The notes under the pieces are model-generated. The model made no database searches. It was not told the origin of the DNA and was given only the letters and a program-made list of their open reading frames with translations. A DNA stretch of 36,951 bases from a virus. The position numbers were made by a program, and so were the translations under genes. The stretch is from positions 1 to 36,951 of the IMG/VR virus record IMGVR_UViG_3300010403_000041, one strand, 5' to 3'. The stretch's first letter is position 1. Each line of letters begins with the position of its first letter. This document shows positions 388 to 21,764 of the stretch, piece after piece.

Positions 388-714
388 TCATCCGGTCCGG
401 TTCCAATGGTGACCGGGTGCGGTAGGCCATCCCGAGCGGTCCACTGGACGAAGGTCGGACCATAGGCCAGCGGGCGCCCCGGTTGCCTTGTGTGCATGGC
501 GCTTGGCGTCACAGTTCACACACAGCACACGAAGGTTAGAGTCGACCAGAGCAAGGTCAGGGCGTACAGCGCGCGGGATGATGTGGTCCACACGGGAAGC
601 CCCTTTCCCCGAGACGTCCGCAGTGCAGTTCTCGCAACGCTTGTGCGCGCGCTTGACTGCGTGTCCGCGTGCCGCCTGCCATTCCCGCGTTTTATAAAAC
701 GGATTGTTCGGCAT
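388..714 (-). CDS. HNH endonuclease
   Basis: A 108-residue HNH nuclease. Visible landmarks are the FYKTREWQ start typical of phage HNH proteins, a first zinc pair C27/C30, the catalytic DH at 43-44 in RVDHIIPRA, N60 in SNLRVLC, a second zinc pair C65/C68 and the closing His residues at 73 and 75. All core residues are present, so it should be active. In HK97-like phages this protein is encoded beside cos and works with the terminase in cutting and packaging DNA. Its place at one end of this window, on the same strand as the portal, fits that role. No terminase is in the window to confirm it. Confidence 0.9.
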   Translation of the reverse strand: MPNNPFYKTREWQAARGHAVKRAHKRCENCTADVSGKGASRVDHIIPRAVRPDLALVDSNLRVLCVNCDAKRHAHKATGAPAGLWSDLRPVDRSGWPTAPGHHWNRTG

Positions 715-811
715 AGCGTAAGGATAGCGCCATGCCGTTGAAATGCGGGCGGAATTATGAGATACCGGCGTAACACCTTGTTTCTATGCCGTTCTTAGGC
801 ATTGACGGCTA

Positions 812-839
812 TTGCATTTCCTTACGCTAGGCGTATAAT
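812..839 (+). promoter_or_regulatory. Sigma70-type promoter of the early plus-strand operon
   Basis: TTGCAT (812-817), a 16-bp spacer and a perfect TATAAT (834-839). It sits in the gene-free stretch 715-1021, about 180 bp before the first gene of the plus operon. Between it and the gene lie a small hairpin (GCCGG/CCGGC, 901-920) and the first copy of the structured leader. An imperfect inverted repeat ATGCC..GGCAT lies just upstream at 786-802 and could be an operator. No other good sigma70 promoter is visible between here and 5752, so it probably drives all twelve genes. Confidence 0.75.
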
Positions 840-932
840 TCTGTATGTACCTGTTGCACTCGTCTGATGGTCCGCGAGATTAAACGAAAGGGATCAGCGC
901 GCCGGAGTTCGAAAACCGGCTTTCACCAAACG

Positions 933-1015
933 AACCGCGCGAGTCGCGCGGACAGCGAACCGAAGCCCCGCTGTCCGGGCGACTTGTTCCCCGATCAAAA
1001 CCACTGACGAAAGGA
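933..1015 (+). repeat. Structured leader, copy 1 (divergent)
   Basis: First and most divergent copy. Hairpin A is CCGCGC-GAGTC-GCGCGG (935-951). Hairpin B keeps the GGACAGCG/CGCTGTCC arms (950-957 and 969-976) but has a longer 11-nt loop. Hairpin C (GGGC...) is degenerate. It ends with CCACTGACGAAAGGA at 1001-1015, six bases before the ATG at 1022. The paired bases of hairpin A differ from the other copies on both sides, so pairing is kept. Confidence 0.85.
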
Positions 1016-1021
1016 TTCATC

Positions 1022-1795
1022 ATGAAAGCAGCAACCCATTACGGCGAATGTCAACTGTGCGGCCACACGCAAAAATTGCCCTACGGCGGGCGTCTTTCGT
1101 TGCACGGGTACAGCGTGCAATGGAATATGTTTGTCGGCACGTGCGACGGTTCGCGTCATCTGCCTTACGAACAGTCGAAAGACTTGCTTGCGGACCAGAT
1201 TGTGCGCCAACGCAAAGTCATCGTCGACCGGCAAGCGTTCCTGAAGGAAATCACGTCGCCGACATTCACGGACATATTCATTTCCGAATATCAGCGCGAA
1301 CGCAACGGCGGGAAGGGCGGATATATCGGTCGCCGGTTGACGGCCGCAGAATACACGATGGAAGAACACAAGCACGAAAGTTATTCATCGTTCCGCATCA
1401 CGTGGACCAAGCAGGACGGCAAGCAAGGCGAAGTCAAACAGTATGATGTGACCAGCGCCGCCGCGCTGATCGCCTACGCGAACCGGAACACGGTGCGCGA
1501 AGTCAGCGACGAGATAAAGAATCGCGAAGACTACATCGTTTGGCTTCAGGCCCGGATTGATAACTTCAAGGTGCGCGACCTGAAGCCGATCCCGCAAGAC
1601 GAACAGGGCACGAAGACGCGCACGATGCACTTTTCAGTTCCCATGTACGGCTACAAAAGCGCGTCCGCCTGTTCGGCTTCGGCAATGGGCGCGCAAAAGT
1701 CGAGTTACTCGCACGCGCAAACGACGGACCGCAGCAAAGTAACCTGCGTCCGTTGCCTGAAGGAAATCGCGCGCCGCGAAGCAAAGAAGGCGTAA
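1022..1795 (+). CDS. Phage protein with N-terminal zinc-finger-like domain
   Basis: A 257-residue protein of unknown function and the first gene of the early operon. Residues 9-50 carry a CQLCGH motif followed by a LSLHGY...GTC.GS.HLPYE block that I have seen in other phage and bacterial hypothetical proteins. A second CxxC pair (VTCVRCLKEI) sits near the C terminus, so the ends may form a zinc site together. The middle (about 60-200) is charged and probably helical. The start is fixed by the leader-borne AAAGGA six bases upstream. Confidence 0.8.
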   Translation: MKAATHYGECQLCGHTQKLPYGGRLSLHGYSVQWNMFVGTCDGSRHLPYEQSKDLLADQIVRQRKVIVDRQAFLKEITSPTFTDIFISEYQRERNGGKGGYIGRRLTAAEYTMEEHKHESYSSFRITWTKQDGKQGEVKQYDVTSAAALIAYANRNTVREVSDEIKNREDYIVWLQARIDNFKVRDLKPIPQDEQGTKTRTMHFSVPMYGYKSASACSASAMGAQKSSYSHAQTTDRSKVTCVRCLKEIARREAKKA

Positions 1796-1796
1796 T

Positions 1797-1875
1797 GCAG
1801 GACCGCATGCGAGTCGTGCGGACAGCGACCGCGCTGTCCGGGCGACTTGCCCGAAAAACCACTGACACGAAAGGA
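1797..1875 (+). repeat. Structured leader, copy 2
   Basis: A full copy that starts one base after the stop of the preceding gene. Hairpin A is CCGCATGCGAGTCGTGCGG, hairpin B is GGACAGCGACCGCGCTGTCC, and hairpin C is GGGC-GACTT-GCCC. A two-base insertion changes the ribosome-binding segment to CCACTGACACGAAAGGA. The next ATG is at 1882. Confidence 0.9.
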
Positions 1876-1881
1876 ACACGA

Positions 1882-2187
1882 ATGATTGATTTCAAACTAC
1901 AGCCGGAAGAATTCGCCGTCGTCGAACGCATCGCATGCCGCGCCCTCGACATGGCGGACAGGTTCAACGTCGATTACACGAAGACGGAAGCCGTCATGGA
2001 CCTGACGGCGTGCCATCGCAACGGATGCCCGCTGTCGCTCGACGAACTCGAAGCCGCGCCGGATGGCGACTTCGCGCACGACGTCTTCGGCATTCGGCGG
2101 CACATCAACCGGGAAACCGGCGCCCTCGAAGATTGCTTCATGCCGCGCTTCGCCGCCGCGTATCACACGGCGCGCGCCGCCAGCTAA
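1882..2187 (+). CDS. Conserved phage hypothetical protein
   Basis: A 101-residue acidic protein without a function I can name. It contains a block (MDLTACHRNGCPLSLDEL, then FAHDVFGIRRHINRETG) that resembles a family common in Burkholderia and Pseudomonas phages. There is no signal peptide or membrane segment. The ATG at 1882 is chosen over the longer in-frame start at 1753 because the earlier codons cover the structured leader, and because AAAGGA lies six bases before 1882. Confidence 0.8.
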   Translation: MIDFKLQPEEFAVVERIACRALDMADRFNVDYTKTEAVMDLTACHRNGCPLSLDELEAAPDGDFAHDVFGIRRHINRETGALEDCFMPRFAAAYHTARAAS

Positions 2188-2188
2188 C

Positions 2189-2262
2189 GCAGGACCGCAT
2201 GCGAGTCGTGCGGACAGCGACCGCGCTGTCCGGGCGACTTGCCCGACCACTGACGAAAGGGA
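2189..2262 (+). repeat. Structured leader, copy 3
   Basis: A full copy beginning one base after the previous stop. Hairpins A, B and C are identical in sequence to copy 2. The A-run that links hairpin C to the CCACTGACGAAAGGG segment is the shortest of all copies. The next ATG is at 2269. Confidence 0.9.
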
Positions 2263-2268
2263 ACAACG

Positions 2269-2634
2269 ATGATTAAGACCACAAAGGCGGCACTCGGCGA
2301 ACTGGCACACAAGGCCCGCATCGTCGCCGACGAACCCGACTTGCAGGAAAGTTACGGCATCACAGAGCAGGAAGCCATCGACGTCACGTTCGACCTGATG
2401 CGCATGCAACGAAAGGGCGCGATGTTCTACAGCGGCGGCAAGTCGAACGTCGTGTTGCGGATGCTTGCCGACGAAGCGGAAGACGCCGCCGTCGTGTTTC
2501 GCGATATCGCGCGCGCTGCGACGTCGCCGTCGGAGCGGAAGAAAGCGCGCGAAGCCGCGCTGGACTTGGACGTGTTGGCGCAGAACATAAACGCGACGAT
2601 CACGGCGAACGCGTACAAGGCGGCATCGAAGTAA
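2269..2634 (+). CDS. Helical hypothetical protein
   Basis: A 121-residue protein rich in Ala, Glu, Asp and Lys and predicted to be almost entirely helical. Runs such as LADEAEDAAVVFRDIARAA and ARAALDLDVL-like segments suggest amphipathic helices or a helical bundle. I recognise no catalytic motif. It is the third gene of the early operon, with its own leader copy on each side, so it forms a self-contained cassette of leader plus gene. Confidence 0.75.
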   Translation: MIKTTKAALGELAHKARIVADEPDLQESYGITEQEAIDVTFDLMRMQRKGAMFYSGGKSNVVLRMLADEAEDAAVVFRDIARAATSPSERKKAREAALDLDVLAQNINATITANAYKAASK

Positions 2635-2636
2635 AC

Positions 2637-2711
2637 GCAGGACCGCATGCGAGTCGTGCGGACAGCGACCGCGCTGTCCGGGCGACTTGCCCGAAACCAC
2701 TGACGAAAGGA
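2637..2711 (+). repeat. Structured leader, copy 4
   Basis: A full copy starting two bases after the previous stop. All three hairpins match copies 2 and 3, and it ends in CCACTGACGAAAGGA. The next ATG is at 2718. Confidence 0.9.
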
Positions 2712-2717
2712 ACGCAA

Positions 2718-2957
2718 ATGGAAATCGAATTCGAAAACGAAAGGTTGATGCACTCGACGCTTGTCAACGACCTGACCGCCATCGCGGCGAAGTGCAACAC
2801 GCTGGACGAAGTGCAAACGGCGGTCGACGCCCTCGCGCTGAATCCGCATTGGTGGCAAGTCTACCGCGGCGGTCATCACATCGCGCTGTTGTTCCGGGAA
2901 GGGTTCGACCGCTTTCATCGCGCCGTCGTCATCAACGAACCGGGGCGGCGCGCATGA
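2718..2957 (+). CDS. Small hypothetical protein
   Basis: A 79-residue protein with an acidic, helical N-terminal half and a C-terminal half containing HWWQVYRGGHHIALLFREGF, which looks like beta strands. I do not recognise the family. The start is set by the leader segment AAAGGA six bases upstream. The stop overlaps the next start as ATGA, so the next gene is translationally coupled and needs no leader copy. Confidence 0.75.
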   Translation: MEIEFENERLMHSTLVNDLTAIAAKCNTLDEVQTAVDALALNPHWWQVYRGGHHIALLFREGFDRFHRAVVINEPGRRA

Positions 2958-3166
2958 GGGCGGACGACGCGAAGCGCATCGCGAGTCAGGGCGGGTGCGT
3001 GTTGTGGTATGACAGGCAAACCCGCTTATGGTATTTGCATGCGGTCGGCGCGCTTGAAGTCGAAGCGTCCGGCGGTTGCTTCATGAGTCCCGGACAACTG
3101 TCGGTCCTGACGCGCGCGCAGTTCGGCGCCCGGGTCGCCGACGCCGTTAAATCAACGAAAGGGTAA
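2954..3166 (+). CDS. Small hypothetical protein
   Basis: A 70-residue protein of unknown function that starts inside the ATGA overlap with the preceding gene. It contains CVLWYDRQTRLWYLHAVG, an aromatic beta-hairpin-like stretch, and no obvious metal site. Its upstream in-frame extension covers leader copy 4 and is rejected. It has no leader of its own and depends on coupling to its neighbour. Confidence 0.7.
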   Translation: MRADDAKRIASQGGCVLWYDRQTRLWYLHAVGALEVEASGGCFMSPGQLSVLTRAQFGARVADAVKSTKG

Positions 3167-3169
3167 GCC

Positions 3170-3370
3170 ATGGTCGACGAGAAACGGAACTATCGCGTTA
3201 CGCGACTTTGCTGCATTAGCGGCATGTGCTTGGAGTGCCGCGCGGTCGCGACCGGCGGCAAGCGCAAGCGCATCGTGCATGCGGACAACGTCACGAAGGC
3301 ATATGCCGAACAGTGCCTCACGGGTTGGGCGGCATGGGAACCGAAGGCGGAACGTGTGCCGGGAAGGTAA
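3170..3370 (+). CDS. Small basic Cys-containing protein
   Basis: A 66-residue basic protein with four cysteines near the start (LCCISGMCLEC), spaced to bind one metal ion. It starts three bases after the preceding stop; GAAAGGG just inside that gene supplies the ribosome-binding site. I do not recognise a family. It is the third gene of a three-gene unit (2718-3370) served by a single leader copy. Confidence 0.7.
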   Translation: MVDEKRNYRVTRLCCISGMCLECRAVATGGKRKRIVHADNVTKAYAEQCLTGWAAWEPKAERVPGR

Positions 3371-3371
3371 A

Positions 3372-3447
3372 GCAGGACCGCGCGCGAGTCGTGCGGACAG
3401 CGACCGCGCTGTCCGGGCGACTTGCCCGAAAACCACTGACGAAAGGA
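3372..3447 (+). repeat. Structured leader, copy 5
   Basis: A full copy that begins one base after the previous stop. Hairpin A reads CCGCGCGCGAGTCGTGCGG, so the fifth pair changes from A-U to G-U in RNA and can still pair. Hairpins B and C are unchanged. It ends in CCACTGACGAAAGGA, and the next ATG is at 3454. Confidence 0.9.
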
Positions 3448-3453
3448 ATCGAA

Positions 3454-3765
3454 ATGGAAAGGCAATGGACTTTGTCCGCGGGCGAAGCGACGGTCGACGC
3501 GGCGGGGCAAGACAGCATCGAATGCGGCGACGTCGTGCGTTCGTATGACTTCCCCGGCTTGGACTCGGGGTGTTATGTTGAAGGCGTCGTGACCGAGCGC
3601 GACGACGAAGCCGTCATGATTCACGTGATCCGTGACGTATGGGCCAACAAGGACGAACAGGTCGGCGCGCGGCTTCAGGTTTGCGCGCCGCTTGGCATCT
3701 CGTCGTCGCGTGGCGTCCCGGCGGTTTACCTGATCGCCAAGCGCGTCAAGAAAAGCGACGAATGA
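3454..3765 (+). CDS. Conserved phage hypothetical protein
   Basis: A 103-residue acidic protein. The segment IECGDVVRSYDFPGLDSGCYVEGVV is recognisable as a recurrent block in phage hypothetical proteins, and the rest looks like a compact beta-rich domain. I know of no function for it. Upstream in-frame codons back to 3226 overlap the previous gene and the leader, so the ATG at 3454, six bases after AAAGGA, is used. Confidence 0.75.
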   Translation: MERQWTLSAGEATVDAAGQDSIECGDVVRSYDFPGLDSGCYVEGVVTERDDEAVMIHVIRDVWANKDEQVGARLQVCAPLGISSSRGVPAVYLIAKRVKKSDE

Positions 3766-3767
3766 AA

Positions 3768-3782
3768 CCACTGACGAAAGGA
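3768..3782 (+). promoter_or_regulatory. Short leader: ribosome-binding segment only
   Basis: CCACTGACGAAAGGA, identical to the 3' end of the full leaders but without the three hairpins. It lies between the stop at 3765 and the ATG at 3789. Confidence 0.8.
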
Positions 3783-3788
3783 CAGGAA

Positions 3789-4058
3789 ATGAAAACGAAA
3801 GCGGTCAATCGCAAGGACCTTGTGCGCGTCGACCTGACCGTCGACGAAGCGGAATCCGCCGGTCATCATGTCTATGACTACACGGTTCGATACACGATCA
3901 ACGGCGCGAAGTTCAAGCGCCACTTCCGTTCGGGCAAGGACGCCCGCGCGTACATGGACGTTTTGCAGGAAAACGGCATCGCCGCAAACTACGCGGCGAA
4001 GCGGCACAAGGCGGACAAGGCGAAGGGGTTGCAGTACATGCAACCGGAAAAGGAATAG
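3789..4058 (+). CDS. Small basic hypothetical protein
   Basis: An 89-residue basic protein. The stretch YTVRYTINGAKFKRHFRSGKDARAYMDVL has the strand-strand-helix rhythm of the arm-binding or AP2-like domains of tyrosine recombinases, similar in outline to the protein at 4676. The C terminus is Lys-rich. That likeness is my reading of the pattern, not a firm family call. It uses the hairpin-less short leader. Confidence 0.7.
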   Translation: MKTKAVNRKDLVRVDLTVDEAESAGHHVYDYTVRYTINGAKFKRHFRSGKDARAYMDVLQENGIAANYAAKRHKADKAKGLQYMQPEKE

Positions 4059-4060
4059 CC

Positions 4061-4285
4061 ATGGACGCCGCCTTGACGCTGTTGTTTCTTGTCGTTGCTT
4101 TTTTGTATTTGTCCCCGCCGCTGTACGTTATTTTTTCGAGCCGTTCCCGCGGCGGCGCAAAGTTCGGATGGTTACTTGTTGTCGTGTGTTTTTCTTGGAT
4201 CGGGTTTGCCGTGTTCCTGATCGTCACGCAATCGCCTGACGCGAAGGCACCGGCATCGTTTGACCGGGTCGACCCGCGCTTTTGA
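4061..4285 (+). CDS. Small two-span membrane protein
   Basis: A 74-residue protein with two hydrophobic segments (about 4-26 and 36-56) joined by a basic SSRSRGGAKFGW turn, followed by a polar tail. The layout resembles small inner-membrane proteins such as PLDc_N-like or superinfection-immunity-like proteins, which have two spans and a basic loop. If it does act in superinfection exclusion, expression from the early operon would fit. This is an inference from topology only. It starts two bases after the previous stop. Confidence 0.7.
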   Translation: MDAALTLLFLVVAFLYLSPPLYVIFSSRSRGGAKFGWLLVVVCFSWIGFAVFLIVTQSPDAKAPASFDRVDPRF

Positions 4286-4289
4286 TCTT

Positions 4290-4365
4290 GCAGGACCGCA
4301 CGCGAGTCGTGCGGACAGCGACCGCGCTGTCCGGGCGACTTGCCCATAATCCACTGACGAAAGGA
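4290..4365 (+). repeat. Structured leader, copy 6
   Basis: A full copy. Hairpin A reads CCGCACGCGAGTCGTGCGG, turning the U-G closing pair of copies 2-4 into a C-G pair. The linker after hairpin C differs (CATAAT in place of CGAAA). It ends in CCACTGACGAAAGGA, and the next ATG is at 4372. Confidence 0.9.
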
Positions 4366-4371
4366 AACACA

Positions 4372-4593
4372 ATGAAGGTTTACTTGCACAAGCGCATTGC
4401 AAAGGGCATGGGCGTTAGCGCCTCGCGAAAAGTCGACGGCACGTTCATCGGTGCTTTGCTGGGGTTCGGTTTGGTGCGCGGGGCGATCAAGCTTGTATGC
4501 ATGCCGTTCGCAGAATGGCGCAACGGAAAGCGGGTCAACGCAATCCTGACGCTTGTCGCCGTGTTGGCTATCGCATCGCTGTTCGTGTTCTAA
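4372..4593 (+). CDS. Small membrane-associated hypothetical protein
   Basis: A 73-residue protein with a basic N terminus, a Gly/Leu-rich weakly hydrophobic stretch (about 24-45) and a strongly hydrophobic C-terminal segment (NAILTLVAVLAIASLFVF) that should span the membrane. Function is unknown. It forms a leader-plus-gene cassette between copies 6 and 7 of the leader, next to another small membrane protein at 4061. Confidence 0.7.
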   Translation: MKVYLHKRIAKGMGVSASRKVDGTFIGALLGFGLVRGAIKLVCMPFAEWRNGKRVNAILTLVAVLAIASLFVF

Positions 4594-4594
4594 C

Positions 4595-4669
4595 GAAGGA
4601 CCGCATGCGAGTCGTGCGGACAGCGACCGCGCTGTCCGGGCGACTTGCCCGAAACCACTGACGAAAGGA
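4595..4669 (+). repeat. Structured leader, copy 7
   Basis: A full copy starting one base after the previous stop. Its first bases read GAAGGACC instead of GCAGGACC, while the three hairpins match copies 2-4. It ends in CCACTGACGAAAGGA, and the next ATG is at 4676. Confidence 0.9.
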
Positions 4670-4675
4670 AACATC

Positions 4676-5083
4676 ATGATAAAAAAGAGACGAAGCTTTC
4701 ACGGCGTTACCCGTTCTCAAGACGCGGCGGGCGAAGACAGATTCTTGGCGCAAGTGCGCGTGAGGGGTGCGCCGCATATGTCGAAAATGTTCAAGCATCA
4801 GGACGAAGCGATCGCATGGAAGCGCGCGATGGAAATCGACGTAAAGCAAAAGCACGGCATCGTTACCCAGTCCGTCCGCAGTCAAACCGGATATTGGCCC
4901 TATTGGCGCGGCTTCCAAAAGGTCGCGGCCGAACATCATCAGGCCATTTCGGAACTGTTGGAAGCGGCGCGCGACGTCGTCTTGTTTTCCAACAAGGAAG
5001 GCGGCGTTCCGGCGCGCAAACTCGGCGCCCTGAAGGCGCAAATTCGCGCATACGAAATCGCCGCGTATGGCTTTGACGTTTGA
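4676..5083 (+). CDS. Possible DNA-binding protein with integrase-arm-like N terminus
   Basis: A 135-residue basic protein. Its first 55 residues (FLAQVRVRG....SKMFKHQDEAIAWKRAMEID) follow the strand-strand-strand-helix pattern of the arm-type DNA-binding domain found at the start of tyrosine recombinases, but no catalytic domain follows. The C-terminal part (about 75-135) is helical. It could be a stand-alone DNA-binding or excision-related protein. That is a weak inference. The ATG at 4676 is placed by the leader. Confidence 0.65.
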   Translation: MIKKRRSFHGVTRSQDAAGEDRFLAQVRVRGAPHMSKMFKHQDEAIAWKRAMEIDVKQKHGIVTQSVRSQTGYWPYWRGFQKVAAEHHQAISELLEAARDVVLFSNKEGGVPARKLGALKAQIRAYEIAAYGFDV

Positions 5084-5089
5084 AATCCG

Positions 5090-5106
5090 CCACTTTGACG
5101 AAAGGA
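5090..5106 (+). promoter_or_regulatory. Degenerate short leader
   Basis: CCACTTTGACGAAAGGA, the ribosome-binding part of the leader with a two-base insertion and no hairpins. It follows the stop at 5083. AAAGGA is 8 bases from the ATG at 5115 but only 2 from the ATG at 5109, so 5115 is the better start. Confidence 0.65.
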
Positions 5107-5114
5107 CAATGCAA

Positions 5115-5378
5115 ATGAACTATCTTTATCACACGATCAGGCAAAGCGACCGCGGCGGCTTCGACGTGCATGGCTTCTTCGTGCAACCCGGCGGCGTGCT
5201 TGCCGGGCAAACGCTGAAGCGGTTCATCGAGTCGTTCCCGACGATGGAAGCGGCGCAAGCGGCCTACCCGCAAGCGCGCACGGGGCATGCCTTGCTCGAC
5301 CCCGAAGTCACGCTGTCGCATTTGCCGGGAGAAAACGACCCGGTTCCCGGCGGCATGTACCCGGACGATATCGAATGA
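5115..5378 (+). CDS. Conserved phage hypothetical protein
   Basis: An 87-residue protein with a very recognisable phage block: FVQPGGVLAGQTLKRFIESF, then ATGHALLDP-like residues, then HLPGENDPVPGGMYPDD. Close relatives occur in many phages and proteobacterial prophages without an assigned function. In-frame ATGs also exist at 5067 and 5109. The start at 5115 gives normal spacing from AAAGGA. The stop overlaps the next gene as ATGA. Confidence 0.75.
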   Translation: MNYLYHTIRQSDRGGFDVHGFFVQPGGVLAGQTLKRFIESFPTMEAAQAAYPQARTGHALLDPEVTLSHLPGENDPVPGGMYPDDIE

Positions 5379-5725
5379 AGCCGCGCCGGGTCCTGAACCG
5401 GCGGCGCGCCGCTTGGCGGGCGCGGATCACGTTGCTAGAGCATCAGGCAATCGAAAGCGGCGACCCGCAGCGCGGCGAACTCTTGTTGCGTCAAGCGGAA
5501 GCCGCGCGCGAACGCCTTGCAGTGATCGAAGCGCAGTTGAACGCGGATCGTCGGCAATTGCTTTTGCGTCATCGGATCGCAGGGTATCGCGCCCGAGCAA
5601 CACAAACCCGAAACCTTGCGGCCAGCGTCGGGGACCCCGTGAAAGCGGCAACCCTGCGCACGCTGGCAAACAAGTTCGAGAAAACCGCCGGGGAACTGGC
5701 GGCGTCGCTATTGACCAATCCGTAA
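5375..5725 (+). CDS. Basic coiled-coil-like hypothetical protein
   Basis: A 116-residue, strongly basic protein, Arg/Ala/Leu-rich and almost certainly helical, with heptad-like runs around 15-60 (ITLLEHQAI, LLLRQAEAARERLAVIEAQL). The charge suggests nucleic-acid binding, but no named family is evident. It is the last gene of the early plus operon, coupled to its neighbour by ATGA and followed seven bases later by an intrinsic terminator. Confidence 0.7.
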   Translation: MKPRRVLNRRRAAWRARITLLEHQAIESGDPQRGELLLRQAEAARERLAVIEAQLNADRRQLLLRHRIAGYRARATQTRNLAASVGDPVKAATLRTLANKFEKTAGELAASLLTNP

Positions 5726-5731
5726 CCCTTC

Positions 5732-5756
5732 AAGCCGCCTTCGGGGCGGCTTTTTT
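5732..5756 (+). terminator. Intrinsic terminator of the early plus operon
   Basis: AAGCCGCC / GGCGGCTT stem (5732-5739 and 5745-5752) with a TTCGG loop, followed by six T on the plus strand. It ends the transcript from the promoter at 812. The minus operon ends at 5755, inside the T tract. On that strand no T run follows the stem, so the hairpin looks effective in the plus direction only. Confidence 0.9.
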
Positions 5757-6009
5757 ATTTCCGGGTCAGCAACGCGTCGGCACGCTGGCACGCGTCGATG
5801 ACCGCGAATTCCTTTTGCGCGCGATCCTTCGGCCCGGGCCGTTGCCACCTGTGCAGTGCTAGCCGGTATTGATGGTCGCAGACCTTGCGCAGCGCCCGCA
5901 AGGCGCGTTCTAGTTCGTCGATCCGGACCGTTGCGGCGCACGTACACGGGACGCCCGGCGGCACGATTTCCCCGCACCATTCGCAACGGCCGGTTTCGCC
6001 CGCGGTCAC
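5755..6009 (-). CDS. Small GRCEWC zinc-binding-like protein
   Basis: An 84-residue protein starting with GTG at 6009 inside a GTGA overlap with the stop of the preceding gene. GRCEWCGE near the N terminus plus CTC at about 22-24 gives a four-Cys zinc-site pattern; the rest is a basic helical segment. The first dozen residues match the start of the protein at 7259-7546 (GRCEWCDE), so the two share a zinc knuckle. It is the last gene of the minus operon, and its TAA lies in the T tract of the opposing terminator. Confidence 0.7.
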   Translation of the reverse strand: MTAGETGRCEWCGEIVPPGVPCTCAATVRIDELERALRALRKVCDHQYRLALHRWQRPGPKDRAQKEFAVIDACQRADALLTRK

Positions 6010-18179: not shown

Positions 18180-18194
18180 CCACTGACGAAAGGA
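18180..18194 (+). promoter_or_regulatory. Early-operon ribosome-binding segment before integrase
   Basis: CCACTGACGAAAGGA, identical to the 3' end of the early-operon leaders, six bases before the integrase ATG at 18201. It decides that start over the upstream in-frame ATG at 18168, whose codons run through the segment itself. Confidence 0.8.
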
Positions 18195-18200
18195 ATCGAG

Positions 18201-19520
18201 ATGGACAGGACACTTTTGGAAATCACGCAGCAAGGCGACTGCGAACGCAAGTTGTTGCCGGGGATGCATCCGACGAACGTCGATGGTCTTTGGCTAAAGG
18301 TCAAGGCAACGGGAAGCAAGTCGTTCGTTTGGCGCGGGCGCATGCAGGTCAACGGCAAGTCGACGCCGGTCATGCGCGGACTCGGGCCGTTCCCGGCAGT
18401 CTCATTCAAGCAAGCCGAATCCCTCGCGATTCAGGAACGCGCGAAAGCCACAAGCGGCACGCTTGCCCCGAAGGTCGACCGCGCGGCGAAGGCAAAGGCC
18501 CGCGTCGGACTGGCGGGCGATCAGACCACGTTCGAAACCGCGGCCCGCGAATACGTGACCTTCTATCGGCCGGACTGGAAGAACGCGAAGCATCACAAGG
18601 ATTGGCTTAACACGCTTGAACGCTGGGTTTTCCCGGCGATTGGCGGCAAGCAAGTCGCCGCCGTGTCGGTCGACGACGTCATCGCGATATTGAAGGCGAT
18701 CACGACGCCGAAGAACGACAAGGCGAAGCCGCGCTATGAAACGGCGGAACGGGTCCGGTCACGCATCGAGAAAATCATCGACCGTTACTTCGTCCTTCGT
18801 TTCGTCACGACGTACACGAACCCGGCATTGAAAAAGATCGTGTCGCATCACGTCAAGATTCTGCCGAAGTCCAAGCGCGTGAAGCGTCAAAAGTCGATGC
18901 GCTGGGAATTGGTCCCGGCGTTCGTCGCGGAACTGCGCAAGGTCAAAGGCGTGTCGGCGCGTGCGGTCGAATTCGTGATCCTGACCGCCGCCCGCGACAA
19001 CGAAGTCCGCTTCATGCAATGGGAACATGTCGACTTCAAAAAGCGCGTTTGGGCCGTGCCCGCGGAAGGTATGAAAATGAGCATCGCCCATCGCGTCCCG
19101 CTGTCGACGCGCGCAATCGAAATTCTGCTAGAGATGCGCAAATCAAAAGTCGACGGTTCCAACGTCGTGTTCCCGACGACGTGCAAAGGCAAGGAAGGCG
19201 TCGCCCTCTCTAACGGCGCGATGCTGGCGACCATTGACCCGTTTCGTTCACGCAAGGGACGCGAGACGGCTTACGGGGACTTCGTGACGCACGGGTTCCG
19301 GTCGTCGTTCAAGGTATGGGCAACCGACGAAGCGCACTATGACCGACTGACGTCCGAATACGCGCTGGCGCACACTATCGGCGGGTCGGAAGGCGTCTAT
19401 TCGGAAGACGCGGACCAGTTCAAAAAGCGCATCGAGATGATGGAAGAATGGTGCGAGTTCGTCGGGTCCGCGAAATCGAAAGTCGTCCGCATGCAGGGCA
19501 AACGGCGCGCCGCCGCCTGA
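18201..19520 (+). CDS. int: Tyrosine integrase (P4-like)
   Basis: A 439-residue site-specific recombinase. Residues 20-95 form a DUF4102-type arm-binding domain (LWLKVKATGSKSFVWRGR, LGPFPAVSFKQA). Residues 108-215 are the helical core-binding domain. The catalytic domain shows R265 in LTAARDNEVRFMQWEHVDF, a Lys near 292, HGFR at 364-367, H391 in LAHTIGGSEG and the nucleophile Y400. The final EEWCEFV helix is typical of the P4 group. All catalytic residues are present, so it should integrate the phage. It has its own control region upstream and a terminator downstream. Confidence 0.95.
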   Translation: MDRTLLEITQQGDCERKLLPGMHPTNVDGLWLKVKATGSKSFVWRGRMQVNGKSTPVMRGLGPFPAVSFKQAESLAIQERAKATSGTLAPKVDRAAKAKARVGLAGDQTTFETAAREYVTFYRPDWKNAKHHKDWLNTLERWVFPAIGGKQVAAVSVDDVIAILKAITTPKNDKAKPRYETAERVRSRIEKIIDRYFVLRFVTTYTNPALKKIVSHHVKILPKSKRVKRQKSMRWELVPAFVAELRKVKGVSARAVEFVILTAARDNEVRFMQWEHVDFKKRVWAVPAEGMKMSIAHRVPLSTRAIEILLEMRKSKVDGSNVVFPTTCKGKEGVALSNGAMLATIDPFRSRKGRETAYGDFVTHGFRSSFKVWATDEAHYDRLTSEYALAHTIGGSEGVYSEDADQFKKRIEMMEEWCEFVGSAKSKVVRMQGKRRAAA

Positions 19521-19908: not shown

Positions 19909-20601
19909 TCAATAAAATTCCTCGACGATCACAACGCCGCCTGCGCCGCCGCCGCCTGCGCGCGCGGCTTGACTGACGTGATTGCACGCGCCGCCGCCGC
20001 CCGCACCAATGGCAAGCCCCGGATTGCCCGCGTTGTTGCTTACCGTGCCGCGTCCGCCGCCGCCGAAAATAGAATTGCCGCCACTGCCCGACACGTTGCC
20101 GCCGCTGGGCCATGCCCCGCCCGGCCCGCCGCCGCCGCCGCCGAAGCCAATGCCGCCCGCGGCGCCCGACGCGCCGCCGCCCGTTCCGCCTTGCGATTCG
20201 ATTGCCCCCGCCGGTCCCGAAGGGTTGCCCCCGATCCCGCCGCCGCCGCTTGCGTGTGCGCCGAATGACGACGGGTTGCCATTGCTGCCCGTCGTGCCGT
20301 TCACGCCCGCGCCGCCCGCGCCGACGGTGACCGCGACCACCGCGGCGAGTGACGCGGCGTCAAGGTAGACGATGTACGCGCCGCCCGAGCCGCCGCCGCC
20401 GCCGCCGGACAACTGACCCGCCGCCGTTGCCGGTGCGCCGCCGCCCGCGCCGCCGCCGCCTACGCATGTGACCTTGATCGACTTCAGTCCCGCGGGCTTG
20501 TTCCAGTTTCCGTTCGCGTTGAATACCCGCATCACGGGCGGAGTAGTCGAATCTGGCGGCGGCGTGTCCGCAAGTGCCGGTGCGTTGCCGATATAGTTCA
20601 T
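19909..20601 (-). CDS. Glycine-rich tail tip or fibre protein
   Basis: A 230-residue protein: MNYIGNAPALADTPPP, a short adhesin-like start (RVFNANGNWNKPAGLKSIKVTCVG), then about 170 residues of Gly/Ala/Ser-rich loops of the kind seen in phage receptor-binding polyglycine domains, ending in VVIVEEFY. It shares the NYIG start, the GNW.KP.GLKSIKVT motif and the VVIVEEFY end with its upstream neighbour, so the two are tandem paralogues, but it lacks the collar domain. The ATG shares one base with the previous stop (TGATG). Confidence 0.8.
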   Translation of the reverse strand: MNYIGNAPALADTPPPDSTTPPVMRVFNANGNWNKPAGLKSIKVTCVGGGGAGGGAPATAAGQLSGGGGGGSGGAYIVYLDAASLAAVVAVTVGAGGAGVNGTTGSNGNPSSFGAHASGGGGIGGNPSGPAGAIESQGGTGGGASGAAGGIGFGGGGGGPGGAWPSGGNVSGSGGNSIFGGGGRGTVSNNAGNPGLAIGAGGGGACNHVSQAARAGGGGAGGVVIVEEFY

Positions 20602-21764
20602 CAATAAAACTCCTCAACAATAACGACGCCAGCGGCGCCCGCGCCGCCCGCTTGTTGGGCGCTAGACGTGGCGAGAGCGGCGCCACTGCCACCGCCACCA
20701 TAAGCGCGACCGGCGGCGCCAGCATTGCTGGCGGTCGCCTGCGCCCCGCCACCGCCATGCGCGGACGAACCGCCAGCGCCGCCCCACAGGACGGATGCGC
20801 TCGACATTGCATAGGCAACGCCGCCGCCACCGCCGCCAATGTTCACATCGCCGCCAGCGCCAACGCCGCCAGCGCCGCCGGGCGCCTGACCAGAGGCGGC
20901 GGGCGCAAAAGTGTTGCCACCGCCGCCGCCCGTCGCCGAACAGTGCGCGCCGAAGTTGCTTGTTCCCCCGACGCCCCCGGCGCCGCCGACAGGGTTCGCG
21001 CCGCCGCCGCCGACCGTCACGACTTCACTCGCGCCGAGCAATGCGGCGTCAATCATCTTGATGCTAGTGCCGCCGCCGCCGCCGCCCGCGCCGCAGGAAT
21101 ATTGCGCGCCGCTAGTGCCGCCGCCGCCACCGCCACCGCCGCCACCGCCGACGACGGTTACTTTGATCGACTTCAGTCCCGGCGGCTTGCTCCAATTGCC
21201 GGACGCGGCGAATACCCGCAGCGCTGGCGGGATGCCCGGGGAGGTGGGCGGCACCACATACGCAGACGTCGCCTTGATGCAAGCGACGAGCGCGATGTTA
21301 CTGGGGCGCGTTTCGGTCGTGCCGACATTCGCGTCGGTCGGGGCTGTAACGCGGTTAAGTGTTGGTGACGGACTGCCGGGGCAAAATGAGCCGCTGCCGC
21401 CCACTTGCAAATATCCGTGCGTGTGGGGTCCGACGGTGTCGGCTTGCAACACGCCGAGCGCAGCAGCCACATGGTTCGCGTCGACCTGTCCCGTCGACCG
21501 CATGAAAAGCCCCGAGAAATTCGGCAGCGCGAAGGTCGCCGCGTCGATGTCGCGGAACAGGCCGGGGTTCGCCGCTTGATTGGCGGTCAGGTAGGGTTGC
21601 GCGTAGGCCCACAAGAGCGGGTAAGCGGCCTTTTGCACAGCCTGCCCGTTCAGTTGCAGATAGCTTGCGTTCGGGACGCCGTGAAACCAGCCGATAGCCC
21701 CGACGGGATTCACGTCGCCGACGAGAGTAATTCCCGGACTGCGGCCGATATAGTTTTCGCTCAT
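20601..21764 (-). CDS. Tail fibre protein: collar domain plus glycine-rich domain
   Basis: A 387-residue fibre protein. Residues 20-170 contain a phage tail collar domain: VGAIGWFHGVPNASYLQLNG, AAYPLLWAY, FALPNFSGLFMRSTG, GPHTHGY and TRPSNIALVACIKA. Residues 182-387 are a polyglycine region introduced by FAASGNWSKPPGLKSIKVT and ending VVIVEEFY. Such glycine-rich domains form the receptor-binding tip in several siphophages. The start overlaps the preceding stop as ATGA. The GCC/GGC-rich DNA is prone to slippage and recombination with its neighbour. Confidence 0.9.
   Translation of the reverse strand: MSENYIGRSPGITLVGDVNPVGAIGWFHGVPNASYLQLNGQAVQKAAYPLLWAYAQPYLTANQAANPGLFRDIDAATFALPNFSGLFMRSTGQVDANHVAAALGVLQADTVGPHTHGYLQVGGSGSFCPGSPSPTLNRVTAPTDANVGTTETRPSNIALVACIKATSAYVVPPTSPGIPPALRVFAASGNWSKPPGLKSIKVTVVGGGGGGGGGGGTSGAQYSCGAGGGGGGTSIKMIDAALLGASEVVTVGGGGANPVGGAGGVGGTSNFGAHCSATGGGGGNTFAPAASGQAPGGAGGVGAGGDVNIGGGGGGVAYAMSSASVLWGGAGGSSAHGGGGAQATASNAGAAGRAYGGGGSGAALATSSAQQAGGAGAAGVVIVEEFY

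Follow-up and report, generated by a model that had tools for sequence, protein, structure and literature searches.

Among described phage repeats, the start-associated sequences (SAS) of cluster K mycobacteriophages are short asymmetric repeats, mostly in one orientation, that carry a Shine-Dalgarno sequence and lie a few bases upstream of the ATG of many non-structural genes; in a subset of them, the extended start-associated sequences (ESAS), inverted repeats of roughly 17 bp, with spacers that vary, lie on the upstream side (Pope et al. 2011, PMC3203893). The SAS are thought to act in translation (PMC3203893). The arms of the ESAS give no support for pairing as RNA, and in Adephagia they contain putative SigA-like promoters (PMC11373665). 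Described in 2011, these elements had a role that was still termed unclear or ill-defined in papers of 2024 and 2025. Here we analyze a 36,951-base virus sequence (IMG/VR record IMGVR_UViG_3300010403_000041, in full referred to as the window) in which a repeated leader of about 80 bases fills the gap upstream of every gene or gene group in one operon, and for which SAS/ESAS are the closest known system.

Comparison of the leader with described phage elements

As in SAS/ESAS, the 3' portion of the leader, its tail, places a Shine-Dalgarno sequence shortly upstream of start codons (10 sites). As in ESAS, an inverted repeat is found upstream of a subset: 7 of the 10 full tail sites have an 18-pair stem, whose spacer measures 4 or 11 nt. 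In contrast to ESAS, the arms of the window repeat pair fully and hold no promoter above background. The 13-bp cluster K SAS consensus GGGATAGGAGCCC had no match in the window with up to two mismatches allowed. A placement similar to that of the window leaders is found for the clustered hammerhead ribozymes of prophages, RNA elements bordering individual genes or small blocks of genes in phage operons, for which a role in dividing long transcripts was proposed (Perreault et al. 2011, PMC3088659), although the window element has no working hammerhead core. In phage T7, RNase III cutting of the early polycistronic mRNA yields mono- and dicistronic units (PMC4858673). The window leaders would likewise be sites within an early polycistronic mRNA, with cutting there as a proposal. 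The T7 RNase III sites are not known to be repeats of a single sequence joined to an invariant start tail. Finally, T4-type phages carry repeated stem-loop cassettes in gaps, the promoter early stem-loops (PeSL), which were suggested to aid gene shuffling (Arbiol et al. 2010, as summarized in PMC4503421); in that summary the cassette includes an early promoter, unlike the window copies.

An earlier note on this DNA, the original prediction, had stated that no described element resembling the leader was known, which is too strong a claim given the similar placement of SAS/ESAS and of the prophage hammerheads. The leader is new in sequence and form, whereas start-linked leaders as such are already known elsewhere.

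Seven leaders share one long stem

The seven copies, one per gene or gene group, were verified at the coordinates originally given for them, all on the + strand (Table 1). Copies 2-7 share a common core of about 57 bases with few substitutions, and copy 1 is the divergent one, differing from the others in its 5' flank, its spacer and its loop, which has 11 nt rather than 4 with the stem retained. Six of the seven begin no more than 4 bases past the stop codon of the preceding gene, as had been claimed for every copy; the exception is copy 1, which has no preceding stop codon and sits in the 5' untranslated region about 100 bases past the -10 box of a promoter-like site. The leaders had also been described as ending six bases before a start codon, and the motif AAAGGA does end 6 bases before ATG, save in the copy at 2189, where AAAGGG ends 7 bases before it.

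The fold predicted for the leader differs from the three hairpins of the original prediction. RNAfold returned a single 18-bp stem (9 bp, a G.G mismatch and 9 bp) in all seven copies, with z from -4.0 to -5.2 and the stem sequence GCGAGUCG[U/C]-G-CGGACAGCG / CGCUGUCCG-G-GCGACUUG[C/U], and the three-hairpin fold, with its hairpin A forced, was 8.8-11.5 kcal/mol worse; hairpin C, supposedly present in every copy, is weakened in copy 1. All 126 pair cells across the seven copies are standard pairs, G.U wobbles included, as compared with 29-49% pairing in slid versions of the stem alignment that served as a control. One G.U pair is kept in every copy, and only two stem pairs vary, each by a one-sided change that keeps the pairing (G-C to G-U and U-G to C-G). 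Pairing is also better on the sense strand, with a folding energy for the common stem of -35.1 kcal/mol as against -25.5 kcal/mol for the antisense strand, an advantage of about 10 kcal/mol that falls to 4 in copy 1 (-34.6 versus -30.5 kcal/mol).

The tail is a separate module at a near-fixed distance from the start codon

The tail, CCACTGACGAAAGG, contains the Shine-Dalgarno sequence, is predicted to be unpaired (module sequence CCACUGACGAAAGGA) and is a module separate from the hairpin, as it also precedes start codons where no hairpin is found. The 14-base tail has 8 matches in the window with up to two mismatches, compared with 0.17 expected in shuffles, which excludes chance. Three sites are stem-less, two of them in the window (at 3768 and, before the integrase gene, at 18180) and the third on the minus strand at about 4170-4180 of an overlapping contig (IMGVR_UViG_3300009176_000084, G001) that is 99.9% identical to the window across 13.9 kb. 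The constant tail claimed for each copy is indeed present in all seven leaders, but in variant form in the copies at 1797 (CCACTGACACGAAAGG) and 2189 (AAAGGG). Nine of the ten full tail sites have the last G of GAAAGG 7 bases before the ATG; at the tenth this distance is 8 bases.

In six copies the stem itself begins 13-16 nt past the preceding stop codon, and in all seven a further 26-34 nt separate its end from the ATG. Since this latter distance varies without the reading frame being kept, the leader can be ruled out as coding sequence. The sizes of ribosome footprints are established and provide a basis for judging how far the stem clears the ribosomes on either side; at the observed spacing, both termination and initiation should be possible with the stem left closed. 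A leader of two modules, as in SAS/ESAS, is suggested by the fixed order of stop codon, stem, tail and start codon and by the use of the tail on its own.

The best promoter-like site lies upstream of the first leader

Promoters were scored with a simple home-made sigma-70 matrix against a background of random segments of the same window. No promoter above background was found inside the leaders, the seven copies scoring between the 16th and 82nd percentile of random window segments, in agreement with the claim that they lack one. On the + strand, the window's top-scoring sigma-70-like site is that at 812-839, upstream of copy 1; a stricter consensus promoter scan of 700-5800 listed nothing, this site included. 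Of the terminator-like sites found on the + strand, only that at the operon end (5732-5752) is strong, the others being weaker. Taken together, the better pairing of the sense strand with its G.U wobbles, the lack of an internal promoter and the position of the best promoter before copy 1 point to a cis-acting RNA leader, and the copies are, as originally suggested, more plausibly RNA elements of this kind than promoters.

The leader is confined to the window phage in the collections searched

The collections searched may omit records very near the window, and the scans for diverged relatives were capped in size. No match to the leader was found in INPHARED by blastn, and no true relative was recovered with exact and relaxed stem patterns from IMG/VR and GTDB genome contigs. 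Searching IMG/VR with the tail alone gave mostly chance-like matches and one from the same phage. The covariance test that the original prediction had called for was run with a model built from the window copies (R1); as the seven copies are near-identical, the test has no power, and the search with R1 gave no convincing match outside the window phage across 62 sources, the weak ones resembling palindromes or tail-only sites, and a single match across 399 genomes from the order of Caballeronia, a chance palindrome near a chromosomal queA-like gene. An Rfam covariance search of 800-5200 gave no match up to E 1. Loci of relatives of the large terminase (TerL) carried no repeated leader of the window kind, and screening of relatives' loci showed nothing comparable to the repeated 16-mers of the window, which also speaks against chance as their origin. 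Among the fetched loci, DUF6874 is the only operon gene with relatives.

Predicted RNA leaders of other phages in similar positions

Repeated leaders were present at two of the 21 DUF6874 loci, L309 in a 66.4-kb record (G006) and L323 in a 63.6-kb record (G007), which share only the DUF6874 gene with the window phage. These leaders mostly start directly past a stop codon and so take the same stop-to-start position as those of the window, and their order of elements, CCCC-CUGANGA-stem II-GAAA-stem III-UH-GGG, is that of a predicted type I hammerhead ribozyme. Across 16 aligned copies, 93.3% of pair cells are paired, and there are 7 two-sided pair changes as compared with 2.1 in shuffles, the compensatory changes being located in stems II and III. 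A hammerhead model built from the aligned copies (R2) gave nine strong matches in G006, with a marginal tenth, and eight in G007, of which Rfam lists just one, below the gathering score. Many of these hammerhead leaders are followed by AAGGA and a ACCCCATG start. Neither R2 nor a hammerhead descriptor scan found a match or a working hammerhead core in the window, and the window leader can thus be ruled out as a hammerhead.

A further arrangement was seen in an unrelated phage (G003, IMGVR_UViG_3300036826_000040; L035 and L285-L294), which carries CGACAGARAGGA ten times on one strand, mostly just upstream of a start codon and following strong hairpins of varied sequence. This phage had no match in INPHARED by blastn.

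Proposed division of one transcript into independent units

The explanation that we favor, and to which we assign an even chance of being correct, is that a two-module RNA leader partitions a polycistronic mRNA into units that are translated independently and are each processed or protected on their own. The first module would be the 18-bp stem-loop, with its G.G mismatch after 9 bp, and the second the unpaired tail with the Shine-Dalgarno sequence. The promoter at about 812-839 would probably drive a single long mRNA covering 1022-5725, in which an RNase III-like double-strand-specific nuclease most likely cuts the stem or, alternatively, the stem blocks exonucleases. Each unit would thereby gain its own protected end, and its translation, uncoupled from the preceding gene, would begin at a standard site, with a presumed effect on expression. 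Processing or end protection comes first in our ranking since other phages have ribozymes in this gap and T7 relies on RNase III to divide its early mRNA. An RNase processing site had been among the roles originally suggested; it is still the likeliest one, and the predicted hammerhead leaders of G006 and G007, which are placed alike, speak in its favor. The strong hairpins of G003, which vary ahead of a constant tail and start codon, are a further point for the proposal. Several observations weigh against this proposal. The other phages (G006, G007 and G003) provide analogies rather than homologues of the window leader. With six near-identical copies and one diverged copy there is no true covariation, and the structure therefore rests on folding energy. 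At 18 bp the stem also does not reach two complete helical turns, the hairpin A predicted earlier has a 5' arm that can still pair in copy 1, and an alternative or switching fold during transcription is possible.

Ranked second, and clearly the less probable of the two, is translational control or insulation without cutting, in which the stem would block reinitiation and the tail, perhaps together with the stem, would bind a regulator of phage or host origin that governs translation of all units jointly. Conservation of the tail beyond its Shine-Dalgarno core, its near-fixed distance from the ATG and its stem-less use at three more places are all consistent with such a role, as are the way the stem abuts both ribosome footprints and the action in translation attributed to the cluster K SAS (PMC3203893). 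However, this explanation names no specific regulator and alone leaves a long stem beside an open ribosome site unexplained. We consider it unlikely that the repeats act as DNA, either as repressor operators or as recombination sites for the exchange of gene cassettes, even though copies this similar hint at gene conversion or a recent spread and a role as DNA sites or promoters has been attributed to the ESAS repeats. Against it stand the better pairing of the sense strand, the G.U pair common to all copies, the variable loop length, the confinement of the copies to the stop-to-start gap in one orientation, and the lack of the repeat in any other phage searched. Spread of leader and gene as a cassette by recombination, as originally envisaged, is compatible with the homogenised copies, but the leader was found in no other phage searched (INPHARED, IMG/VR, GTDB contigs and the 399 genomes).

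A self-cleaving ribozyme of an undescribed class is a very improbable identity for the leader; it would share its position with the hammerhead leaders of G006 and G007, but the lack of a working hammerhead core, of an R2 match in the window and of an Rfam match argues against it, and a conserved unpaired tail that occurs without the stem would be unexpected for part of a catalytic core. Least probable of all is the HK022 put-like signal that had been among the original suggestions, or a nut-like one, which would account for a structured RNA near the operon 5' end. Processive antitermination needs no seven copies, one before every gene or gene group, and the position of the copies argues against it, as do the absence of an Rfam match and of any strong terminator between the genes, the sole strong one lying at 5732-5752.

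More speculatively, and with a small chance of being right, division of the transcript in the window may exemplify a general class of phage leaders in which a replaceable RNA module in the stop-to-start gap (a hammerhead, varied hairpins or a fixed stem) cuts or caps the mRNA, with translation starting from a constant tail particular to each genome; the window stem would then be a new member, perhaps with a catalytic or protein-binding activity of its own. A parallel with the hammerhead leaders would tie start-associated repeats to mRNA processing and offer a simple route from one transcript to independent units. The upstream module of the window leader is a clean, promoter-less RNA stem and its tail is present both with and without that stem, and the two modules are thus separable for testing.

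Genomic context of the leader-bearing operon

Table 1. Features of the leader-bearing operon, related tail sites and the predicted hammerhead arrays of two other phages. Positions are those of the window unless another locus is named.
Feature	Position	Strand	Remarks
Promoter-like site TTGCAT-16-TATAAT	812..839	+	only strong candidate for whole operon; own sigma-70 matrix
Leader copy 1	933..1021	+	stem 939-987; divergent, 11-nt loop
Gene 1	1022..1795	+	257 aa
Leader copy 2	1797..1881	+	stem 1809-1850
Gene 2	1882..2187	+	DUF6874 (PF21779)
Leader copy 3	2189..2268	+	stem 2201-2242
Gene 3	2269..2634	+	121 aa
Leader copy 4	2637..2717	+	stem 2649-2690
Three-gene group	2718..3370	+	2718-2957, 2954-3166, 3170-3370
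Leader copy 5	3372..3453	+	stem 3384-3425
Three-gene group	3454..4285	+	3454-3765, 3789-4058, 4061-4285
Tail alone, no hairpin	3768..3781	+	CCACTGACGAAAGG, before gene at 3789
Leader copy 6	4290..4371	+	stem 4302-4343
Gene 10	4372..4593	+	73 aa
Leader copy 7	4595..4675	+	stem 4607-4648
Three-gene group	4676..5725	+	4676-5083, 5115-5378, 5375-5725
Degenerate tail	5090..5106	+	CCACTTTGACGAAAGGA, before gene at 5115
Intrinsic terminator-like hairpin	5732..5752	+	operon end
Tail alone	18180..18193	+	before integrase start at 18201
Predicted hammerhead array (G006)	L309 2209-8770		mostly one per gene gap
Predicted hammerhead array (G007)	L323 420-7167		mostly one per gene gap

The genes of the window include those for a portal, a tape measure and an integrase, and the overlapping contig G001 extends the phage sequence 7.8 kb past the window's right end with open frames resembling small terminase, large terminase and capsid genes, of which TerL is backed by its relatives. 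These relatives lie mostly within proteobacterial genomes, the near-full matches having 45-56% identity. This gene content indicates that the window and G001 are part of a temperate tailed phage of about 45 kb or more. At the left end of the window, an HNH endonuclease gene (388-714) has the same orientation as the terminase genes of G001 (L132 73-3565), and the genome thus probably closes there, with a gap of unspecified size.

An inverted pair of CCTTACGCTA sites (714-723 and 820-829) lies next to the promoter-like site and the divergent HNH gene start. These sites are possible operators, but 8 of 100 shuffles hold as many matches. Elsewhere in the window, a dense set of CCG/GCC-rich direct repeats lies near the tail genes at 19924-21230.

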